From IMG/VR virus record IMGVR_UViG_3300030430_000052, positions 1-20,146 of that record: a DNA stretch of 20,146 nucleotides. The stretch is one strand, 5' to 3'. Position 1 is the first letter of the stretch. Each line of letters opens with the position of its first letter. The notes under the pieces were generated by a model that was given only the letters and a program-made list of their open reading frames with translations, had not been told where the DNA came from and did not search any database. Position numbers and translations under genes: made by a program. Positions 393-19,351 of the stretch are shown piece after piece. The DNA is from a virus.

Positions 393-565
393 GTGAAGAA
401 AGATTTGAAGATGCACCTGAAGCATTAAAAGAAAAAGATTATCAAAGGTACATACCTAAACCTTATATGAATTATTTCAAATCAGTTCAGTTTTATTCTG
501 ATCGAGATGAAAAAATTCAACCTAAAGGTATGACCGCTGATTACAGAGGTTATGCGAAAGCTTAG
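389..565 (+). CDS. Hypothetical protein, 58 aa
   Basis: This 58-codon frame begins MSEERFEDAP at the ATG of an ATGA overlap with the preceding stop, with GGAG (377-380) eight bases upstream. The protein is rich in tyrosine, lysine and acidic residues, with clusters DYQRYIPKPYMNYFK and MTADYRGYAKA. It has no membrane segment and no cysteine. I do not recognise it. Its last codons and stop lie within the first of two stem-loops (549-576): the stop TAG at 563-565 falls in the hairpin loop, so ribosomes finishing this gene would disrupt that structure. It is the last gene of the leftmost small-gene cluster before the promoter of the recombination operon. Confidence 0.65.
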   Translation: MSEERFEDAPEALKEKDYQRYIPKPYMNYFKSVQFYSDRDEKIQPKGMTADYRGYAKA

Positions 566-576
566 GTTCGCATAGC
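549..576 (+). other. Stem-loop over a stop codon
   Basis: Positions 549-558 pair with 567-576 over ten pairs (core TATGCGAA / TTCGCATA, nine Watson-Crick plus one G-T wobble), leaving an eight-base loop that contains the TAG stop codon of the 58-aa gene. No T-run follows, so it is not a classical intrinsic terminator. It may be an RNA processing site, a transcript-end stabiliser or part of a larger structure with the hairpin directly downstream. Confidence 0.6.
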
Positions 577-578
577 AA

Positions 579-652
579 GTAGAGATTAGTTCCATGGCTA
601 AGTTTTGTTATTGAGAATGGTGAACTTAGTTATCCTTTCTACTAATCTCTAC
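579..652 (+). other. Long bipartite stem-loop upstream of the recombination operon
   Basis: A perfect 12-base inverted repeat, GTAGAGATTAGT (579-590) and ACTAATCTCTAC (641-652), encloses a second stem, 594-604 with 623-633 (eleven pairs including two G-T wobbles, core CTAAGTT / AACTTAG). The internal loop is three bases on the left and seven on the right, and the apical loop is 18 bases. About 23 pairs in 74 bases is far more than neighbouring sequence shows. It starts two bases after the 549-576 hairpin and ends 11 bases before the -35-like hexamer at 664. Plausible roles are transcription boundary, RNase III site, small structured RNA, or a DNA cruciform for replication or protein binding. 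The sequence alone does not choose between them. Confidence 0.6.
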
Positions 653-663
653 ACATTAAGTGC

Positions 664-692
664 TTGATTTATAACAATAAATGTAGTATGCT
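664..692 (+). promoter_or_regulatory. Sigma70-type promoter for the exo operon
   Basis: TTGATT (664-669) and TATGCT (687-692) are separated by 17 bases, close to the TTGACA-17-TATAAT consensus. The flanks are AT-rich and the element sits 22 bases before the exonuclease ATG, after the paired hairpins that would end the previous unit. This is a consensus match by eye in an AT-rich genome, so chance similarity is possible. Confidence 0.5.
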
Positions 693-703
693 GATAGCAA
701 GAT

Positions 704-713: not shown

Positions 714-1529
714 ATGACAACAGAACTACGTCACGCACCTATGCGTGAAGACTTTATCAGAGGTAGCGATATGGTATCTTTGATGCAAGGCAAGTGGGAA
801 GAACTATGGAAAATTAAAATGGGATTGCTTGGTCGTAAAGATTTGCGACATGAGTTCAATGTTAGATTAGGTTCTTTCACAGAAACTTTTAACTTAATAT
901 GGTTACAAGAATACTATGAGTATGACTTTGTGCCACAGCAAGAATACACAAAAATGTATGGCAGTATAAAACTACAAGGTACATTAGATGGTGTAGAAAT
1001 ATCACCTGATAGAAAGATTGGTGTAGAATGTAAACATACACATAGTCGTAATGATATGGACTATATGTTGGATTACTATATGCCACAAATGCAGTTCTAT
1101 ATGTATATATCAGGTCTGCCTAAAATGGTGTTCTCTGTTATCTTTGGTAACAAACATGAATGTGTGATTGTGAGTGAGAACAAGGACTATCAAAATGATA
1201 TGCTCGATAAGATCAAGGCATTTTGGGAGTATGTTACACACAATGAAAGACCAGAGGATATGCTAATAAAAACTAAACAAAGCATTAAAGATAACGTGGC
1301 AATCAATGGCAAAGTCAAACGTGACGCTTCATCTAGTAATAGCTTTACTGTAGCAGTTAATCAATATCTACATAATGAAGACGCTGCTAAACTATTTGAA
1401 CAAGCTAAAAAAGATATTAAAGCAGAGATGAAAGATAATGAGTCAGAGGTCTATACAACAAATGGACCAATAACTATAAGTGCAAAAAGAGATAAGCGTG
1501 GGTCTATACGCATAACAAAAAAGGGATAA
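714..1529 (+). CDS. YqaJ/lambda-type exonuclease
   Basis: This 271-aa protein matches the YqaJ-like viral recombinase nucleases (PD-(D/E)XK fold), which resect double-stranded DNA ends 5' to 3' to expose single strands for an annealing partner. Visible motifs in order: IRGSD at 15-19 (the family's G-[IGS]-SD block), GSFTE with E57, GTLDG with D92, ECK with E105 and K107, and PQMQFYMY with Q127. Together these make the metal-binding and catalytic set. The C-terminal part (about 185-271) is lysine-rich and probably binds DNA. The ATG at 714 follows GGAGG with good spacing. It is the first gene after a promoter-like element and lies directly upstream of an Erf-type annealing protein, the usual exo/annealase partnership. 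A stem-loop overlaps its stop codon. Identification is confident; exact substrate polarity is inferred from the family. Confidence 0.92.
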   Translation: MTTELRHAPMREDFIRGSDMVSLMQGKWEELWKIKMGLLGRKDLRHEFNVRLGSFTETFNLIWLQEYYEYDFVPQQEYTKMYGSIKLQGTLDGVEISPDRKIGVECKHTHSRNDMDYMLDYYMPQMQFYMYISGLPKMVFSVIFGNKHECVIVSENKDYQNDMLDKIKAFWEYVTHNERPEDMLIKTKQSIKDNVAINGKVKRDASSSNSFTVAVNQYLHNEDAAKLFEQAKKDIKAEMKDNESEVYTTNGPITISAKRDKRGSIRITKKG

Positions 1530-1576: not shown

Positions 1577-2074
1577 ATGACAGATACTAAAACTAATACC
1601 AAGAATGGTACTAAAAGTAAAGTTTACAACTTACGAAGTGCTATGCTTGAGTTCCAAAAACTTGCTGTTACTGCAAAAAAAGATGGCAAGAATCCTCACT
1701 TCAGAAGTAACTACTCTACATTGGAGTCTGTTATTACTGCTGTGAATCAAGGTAATCAGTTTGGTTTATTCTTTACCCAAGAGATTGACTACGTTTATGT
1801 CAGTCACATGGAAACCAAATCAGAGGTAGTTGTTGTTACTACAGTTCGTCACGTTGATGATGAATCTACTTATGTGTCAAAGCTACCAATAATATTATCT
1901 AGTGCAAACTATGAGAACCCTCAAAAGATTGGCTCTGCTATCACATATGCAAAGCGATATACATTGCAATCAGTATATGGTCTGCCATCAGAAGATGATG
2001 ATGGTAATGAAGCAAGTAAGCCTACAATCCAAGTCAGCAAACCAAAGATGAAAGGAGAAGATGATGGATTATGA
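1577..2074 (+). CDS. Erf-family single-strand annealing protein
   Basis: This 165-aa protein belongs to the Erf-type annealases (P22 Erf superfamily), which bind single-stranded DNA made by the exonuclease and pair complementary strands. Two family hallmarks are visible: NPHFRSNYSTLESV at residues 39-52 and GSAITYAKRYTLQSVYGL running into the acidic stretch SEDDDGNEA at 119-146. The C-terminal 20 residues are a short lysine- and acid-rich tail, so the protein is close to the minimal Erf core and lacks the long C-terminal domain of P22 Erf. The start is set by the shared leader TGGAGGTCTTA. Its stop overlaps the start of the next gene by about 14 bases, tying annealase and the SSB-like protein into one translation unit. 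Family assignment is strong; the role in phage replication or genome concatemer processing is inferred. Confidence 0.9.
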   Translation: MTDTKTNTKNGTKSKVYNLRSAMLEFQKLAVTAKKDGKNPHFRSNYSTLESVITAVNQGNQFGLFFTQEIDYVYVSHMETKSEVVVVTTVRHVDDESTYVSKLPIILSSANYENPQKIGSAITYAKRYTLQSVYGLPSEDDDGNEASKPTIQVSKPKMKGEDDGL

Positions 2075-19021: not shown

Positions 19022-19041
19022 GAGGGGGATTACTCCCCCTC
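19022..19041 (-). promoter_or_regulatory. Hairpin between Shine-Dalgarno site and gp11-like start
   Basis: A perfect eight-pair GC-rich stem (GAGGGGGA / TCCCCCTC) with a four-base loop fills the gap between the 101-aa gene and the gp11-like gene. On the minus-strand transcript AAGG ends just before the stem and the ATG begins seven bases after it, so folding would place Shine-Dalgarno and start at normal spacing. No T-run follows in the minus direction; CCTTTTAA follows on the untranscribed side. Confidence 0.6.
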
Positions 19042-19045
19042 CCTT

Positions 19046-19351
19046 TTAATCGCTATCGGCTGTACTTAAGTCTGAACCATCACCACAGTCTATTGCTGTG
19101 GCTGATACAGATTTAACTACTGTAGCTGATAAAGTTTTATGGGTTGAATTAGCATCACATATTAGAACGACATCACCTTCTTTCATCATTCCTAATGCTG
19201 ATTGACCATTCATTTCACCACCAGTTGCGTCTGCTGTAGAAAAATAGTTTGCTGCTCTTACTACAGACAAAGCATCATTTGAGGTGTAGTACCATAGATT
19301 AACACCACTACCACCTGCTAGTCGTGTCAAGTTACTCATATCTAAAGCCAT
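19046..19351 (-). CDS. Small virion-associated candidate, 101 aa
   Basis: This 101-aa protein follows the capsid gene, where marine podoviruses often carry a small structural protein (head decoration or fibre) of unknown fold. Its pattern is distinctive: ALDMSNLTRLAGGSGVNLWY (2-21) with YYTSNDALSVVRAANYFSTA (21-40), then a beta-rich part MMKEGDVVLICDA (55-67) and repeated TLSATVVKSVSATAID (73-88). An acidic end (DGSDLSTADSD) completes it. No signal peptide or membrane segment is present. A strong TAAGGAG site, which includes the capsid gene's stop, sets the ATG. High expression with the capsid protein is expected from this coupling. A decoration role is inference only. Confidence 0.65.
   Translation of the reverse strand: MALDMSNLTRLAGGSGVNLWYYTSNDALSVVRAANYFSTADATGGEMNGQSALGMMKEGDVVLICDANSTHKTLSATVVKSVSATAIDCGDGSDLSTADSD

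Follow-up and report, generated by a model that had tools for sequence, protein, structure and literature searches.

Between a small open reading frame and the recombination genes of a marine phage, two strong stem-loops follow one another within about 100 bases, and the question is what such densely paired sequence does in this position. The initial annotation offered a structured small RNA, an RNase III processing site, a transcription boundary or a cruciform as candidates. The gap lies in a window of 20,146 nucleotides, the whole stretch analyzed here, which belongs to a 26-kb fragment record; packaging and virion genes occupy the minus strand, and the plus strand carries an early-type operon.

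The paired interval and its surroundings

Both stem-loops are present, and none of 200 shuffled sequences folds as well as the plus-strand RNA of 540-660 (-39.3 kcal/mol, z -5.06; minus-strand fold -29.2, z -3.79). The unusual pairing density claimed for the interval was borne out when both strands of the whole window were scanned in intervals of 104 nt: of the 1,544 intervals, 549-652(+) folded with the lowest MFE (-38.3), and only one had a lower z than its -6.55, with a slight bias in its favor as the exact start 549 was added to a 26-nt grid; the nearest regular grid window (547) was third by MFE (-34.0). The lowest z of the scan (-6.7) belongs to 19033-19136, where two minus-strand virion genes meet.

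The first stem-loop, H1, pairs 549-558 with 567-576, and its loop (559-566, AGCTTAGG) contains the TAG (563-565) that ends the small ORF, so the 10-pair hairpin with a stop codon in its loop is as first described. In two relatives (L017 and L099), H1 has a GAAA-loop version that is 10 nt shorter, with 7 bp. The second stem-loop, H2, has the perfect 12-bp outer arms that had been noted (579-590/641-652), followed by an asymmetric internal loop (3/7 nt), an inner stem of 12 pairs with several G-U (594-605/622-633) and an apical stem of 5 pairs (608-612/616-620). The stem is bipartite as the initial annotation proposed, but the fold gives 29 pairs and not 23. H2 is followed by ACATTAAG. Neither stem is followed by a T-run, again as first read, and with the U-tract absent the combination of GC-rich stem and U-tract that defines an intrinsic terminator is not found here; a terminator scan likewise gave no site at 549-652. 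ARAGORN found no tRNA or tmRNA, and the Rfam covariance models gave no match at gathering score and no credible one at permissive E-values.

Table 1. Features around the stem-loops, in window coordinates
Feature	Position	Strand	Basis and remarks
Small ORF, 58 aa	389-565	+	ORF list; the left conserved block is its 3' end, which overlaps H1
H1, 10-bp hairpin	549-576	+	RNA fold
H2 (cassette C2), 74 nt	579-652	+	RNA fold; same element in relatives
CATTAAG, start of the right conserved block	654-660	+	Sequences of relatives
Promoter-like element, TTGATT-17-TATGCT	664-692	+	Read from the sequence and relatives
Small palindrome, TGCTGATAGCA	689-699	+	Overlaps the -10-like hexamer; kept in relatives
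RecE-like recombination exonuclease	714-1529	+	phrog_434, E 1.7e-24
Erf-like single-strand annealing protein	1577-2074	+	phrog_155, E 5.3e-29; PF04404, E 1.5e-22

The small ORF has no family match in PHROG or Pfam, and the near 150 bp on this left side are 85-99% identical among relatives, with many pairs at 95-99%. On the right, 12 nt downstream of the end of H2, begins the -35-like hexamer of a promoter-like element that is kept in the relatives read, but is a weak match to the sigma-70 consensus (8/12) and fell below the threshold of a consensus promoter scan, which made no call. The palindrome overlapping its -10-like hexamer is a possible repressor operator, and 58 stretches were found with TATGCTGATAGCA....TGGAGG. 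A ribosome-binding sequence, GGAGG, lies between the promoter-like element and the exonuclease start. Profile matches identify the exonuclease and Erf genes (Table 1), which agrees with the earlier reading of an adjoining recombination operon. Between these two genes, a hairpin (1520-1548) is terminator-like on the minus strand, and many relatives have hairpins related to it (AAAAGGGTAAGCAGACCCACTTACCCTTTT).

Stem-loop cassettes in the slot

The same interval was read in relatives, which were exonuclease homologues and contigs that share the promoter-like element, and the stem-loops found there were grouped by hand into cassette classes C2 to C18. The interval is a slot bounded on the left by the conserved end of the small ORF and on the right by the conserved promoter-like element ahead of the exonuclease and Erf genes. 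About half of the 46 distinct slots read are empty (e.g., in L001, L003, L004, L005, L008, L013 and L018), and in most of these CATTAAG abuts the AAAGCA of the small ORF (AAAGCACATTAAG), as in L001 and L003. The remainder hold one or more stem-loops. The hairpin of the window, C2, is present in L002, L017, L083 and L099 and in part in L100, while others, singly or up to several in tandem, are found in L006, L007, L009, L010, L011, L012, L016, L019, L022, L101, L104-L106, L108, L110, L124, L127 and L138; in L011, L105 and L108, several different elements are arrayed together. What is exchanged is non-coding, a stem-loop some 35-120 nt long. Most cassettes are mutually unrelated, and H2 and most of the others have no U-tract; in L108, a T8 run comes after C13. 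Of the filled inserts tested, most folded better than 100/100 shuffles and the others better than 97-99, which was not the case for the two empty slots tested. The expectation that relatives would keep the hairpin was thus true of the carriers, but many close relatives lack it or have a different one. An exchangeable cassette in a hotspot was not anticipated by the earlier reading.

Cassette exchange at the slot is well supported. The 150 bp on each side are mostly 87-100% identical between relatives, often at least 95%, and DNA further upstream drops to 41-70% where the near 150 bp stay conserved. Between L016 and L017, identity is 99% on either near side, yet one carries C4 and C7 and the other C2; L017 and L019 (99%/100%) differ in having C2 and C8; and L008 and L010 (97%/99%) have an empty slot and C3 plus C4, respectively. 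On an exonuclease tree of 18 rows, cassette content needs 8 changes (gain or loss), and C2 falls on two separate branches (the window with L002, and L017). C4 is found in varying company: after C2 (L099), after C3 (L009), before C7 (L016) and before C17 (L101). Two conserved edges around a variable insert fit what homologous exchange between co-infecting phages needs, and cassettes may be swapped in co-infected cells by recombination through both edges.

Sister cassettes are also reused at other loci. C3 recurs, 46/46 nt, in L102 and L103 between genes unrelated to this operon, and was found in no plasmids or GTDB genomes. C17 occurs in two unrelated genomic contexts. C2 itself was found in this slot only: outside it there was no genuine match in cultured phages (chance level only), in GTDB genomes or in other viral contigs, where the hits in L140 and L141 match 17 nt by chance.

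Several further structures were observed in these sequences. The internal loop of H2 and C5 show a circularly permuted likeness, with GTTATTCCTTC and GTTCCAT in swapped order, over about 18 letters only. The C10 stem-loop (L105:341-409 and L108:5803-5871) contains AGGAT..AAACTTC..ATCCT..GAAGTTT inside a 14-bp stem, within which an H-type pseudoknot could form. A second region rich in long inverted repeats and nested hairpins (L089:4130-4840, L083:1193-1624, L099:944-1368 and L131:423-1457) contains an element in which a long stem encloses CCCCCCTTACCCCCC; in L089 it lies between the terminase small-subunit gene and a divergent early operon. Hairpins with GTAGCTACG-type arms were seen at L021:768-801, L022:1139-1170 and L105:3184-3228, and the first of these encloses AAGGAG and an ATG, an arrangement suggestive of a sequestered ribosome-binding site.

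Strand sense and covariation

The folds of C2 differ between strands, with 29 pairs on the plus strand, 5 of them G-U, and 21 pairs without G-U on the minus strand. At all five C2 loci, the plus-strand fold is better by 8.7-11.2 kcal/mol. Across the C2 alignment, pairing holds in 97.9% of cells, and the outer stem of 12 bp is invariant throughout. Three pairs change on one side only and keep pairing through G-U on the plus strand, and two apical pairs are broken in some sequences. No pair is changed on both sides, among homologues that are too few and too similar, and covariation of H2 is not demonstrable because the outer stem never varies; the covariation check proposed initially gave no compensatory changes. 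The changes seen are compatible with RNA on the plus strand, and the G-U pairs favor such an RNA for H2 over the cruciform that had been among the candidates; the structured small RNA, the RNase III site and the transcription boundary are all retained as candidates. The plus-strand preference is clear for C2, C3, C9, C10 and C17, and absent or reversed for C4 (2/3), C6, C7, C8, C12 and C18. In C4, a core of roughly 27 nt is kept nearly unchanged, and the arms are re-paired.

Covariation is seen in the sister cassette C17. It is about 110 nt long, with the conserved core ACCACTGGTTnnATCrGGTCTAnGGTATGTAA and covarying outer and inner stems, and was found at L127:11355-11475(+), L101:2395-2512(-), L122:2488-2605(+), L022:3810-3935(+), L143:4162-4290(+), L145:1413-1541(+) and L146:4604-4733(-). 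In the last three it has other arms and lies between small ORFs and a convergent gene, which in L143 encodes a helix-turn-helix (HTH) domain. Ten pairs are changed on both sides, and the covariation score of 0.379, compared to 0.162 (sd 0.023) when shuffled (0/500) and at most 0.10 in slid controls, applies to a 29-pair structure derived from the same seven related sequences on which it was scored. One G-U pair is kept in 7/7 sequences. The members scanned had no Rfam match. The covariation evidence is good rather than conclusive, and C17 is a candidate new RNA family.

Function of the cassettes and related systems

The function that we infer for H2 is that of a horizontally exchanged 3'-UTR stem-loop cassette, at which the upstream transcript would be processed or would have its 3' end defined or protected, a reading in which our confidence is evenly balanced. 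H2 would act as plus-strand RNA in the 3' untranslated region of the upstream operon's transcript, where the long stem may set or shield the 3' end as a barrier to 3'-5' exonucleases, and/or may be a double-strand cut site like the RNase III sites of phage T7, and so would separate this transcript from the exonuclease unit. The position after a stop codon and before the promoter-like element, the missing U-tract, the RNA sense and the interchangeable, unrelated stems all fit a 3'-UTR element. As empty slots are common, the element would be dispensable or conditional. Several points weigh against this reading. Selection on pairing is unproven for H2, with its outer 12 bp never varying, the plus-strand preference fails in several classes, and the promoter-like element is weak. 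Since C2 was found in this slot only, its own mobility to other loci stays putative, and the DNA changes would also fit gain and loss without RNA function.

The slot's place between the end of an operon and a promoter-like element would also suit terminators or attenuators that keep read-through from reaching the exonuclease promoter, whether they depend on a factor or are intrinsic and lack a U-tract. C17 between convergent genes and the T8 run after C13 point in the same direction. We nevertheless consider this unlikely for H2 and its replacements, as H2 and most cassettes lack a U-tract, the terminator scan was negative, and the conserved core sequences of C4 and C17 are unexpected for plain terminators. 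These cores with re-paired arms, together with the multi-element arrays, the rapid turnover and the absence of Rfam matches, agree with self-standing structured regulatory RNAs collected in arrays, which could be trans-acting small RNAs, aptamers or decoys and might counter host defence. That H2 is one of these is rather doubtful, however, as it has no visible promoter of its own and no separately conserved core is seen among its few homologues. The broader proposal, that marine phages keep an RNA cassette slot for exchanged structured RNAs with their own cores that act in trans, e.g., as decoys or regulators against host defence, and that H2 is included, seems to us distinctly doubtful.

The presence/absence polymorphism between conserved edges may have a different origin if the inverted repeats act as DNA, either as selfish hairpin elements or as cruciform or recombination sites that insert at or mark the slot. 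The identical C3 at unrelated loci and the adjoining recombination genes agree with this, but on the other strand the G-U pairs kept in C2 and C17 become A-C mismatches, which weakens a DNA cruciform, and most cassettes are unrelated to each other; we regard such a role as improbable. Functionless hairpin debris, gained and lost with a hyperplastic early region, would account for the roughly half of slots that are empty and for the differences between near-identical relatives. It is very improbable, given that the filled slots tested hold strong stem-loops and not random sequence, and that C17 covaries.

The preferred 3'-UTR reading can be compared to known systems. Stem-loops in bacterial 3'-UTRs protect mRNA from 3' exonucleases and, like H2, are long, stable stems directly after a stop codon, but they are normally not exchanged as cassettes with conserved cores. 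T7 RNase III sites are fixed and have upper stems that are related in sequence. The T7 intergenic regions that we take to be R0.3, R0.5, R1, R1.1 and R1.3, which are unannotated in NC_001604, folded into stable stems, mostly two-part. H2 is likewise an irregular duplex (12 bp, the 3/7 loop and 12 pairs) with an asymmetric internal loop, located between genes and without a terminator U-tract; unlike these sites, it is longer, unrelated in sequence and replaceable, and its cleavage is putative.

PeSLs are said to be composite promoter-terminator stem-loop motifs of T4-type phages, whose stem-loops reportedly act as terminators insulating the promoter from read-through. They appear to be the nearest described system to the H2 slot. 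Among the references of PMC5931544 is Comeau, Arbiol and Krisch (2014, doi 10.1093/gbe/evu129) on PeSL cassettes of T4-type phages. Shared features are fast variation between close relatives, a hyperplastic early region and a plausible part of homologous recombination in the exchange; the PeSL stem-loop lies by a promoter, and H2 lies by the weak promoter-like element, a putative promoter. In the slot, however, only the stem-loop is swapped while the promoter-like element stays, and the stem-loops are of many unrelated kinds, in arrays and mostly without U-tracts. We do not file H2 as a PeSL because repeated copies in one genome were not seen, C2 (540-660) being present once in the 26-kb fragment record, and because terminator activity is only putative. 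H2 thus resembles PeSL cassettes and T7 RNase III sites, and we assign it to neither.

The gap before the recombination genes resembles a docking site where structured elements can be exchanged, probably where the upstream mRNA ends. Work on phage mosaicism has mostly concerned exchanged genes, whereas here a non-coding stem-loop is swapped, and the cassette carried differs between phages whose sequences around the slot are almost the same. If the cassettes are 3'-end or processing elements, the stability of early mRNA would be tuned by swapping parts. If some of them act in trans, uncultured marine phages would be a store of undescribed structured RNAs, of which C17, covarying and without an Rfam family, may be an example.
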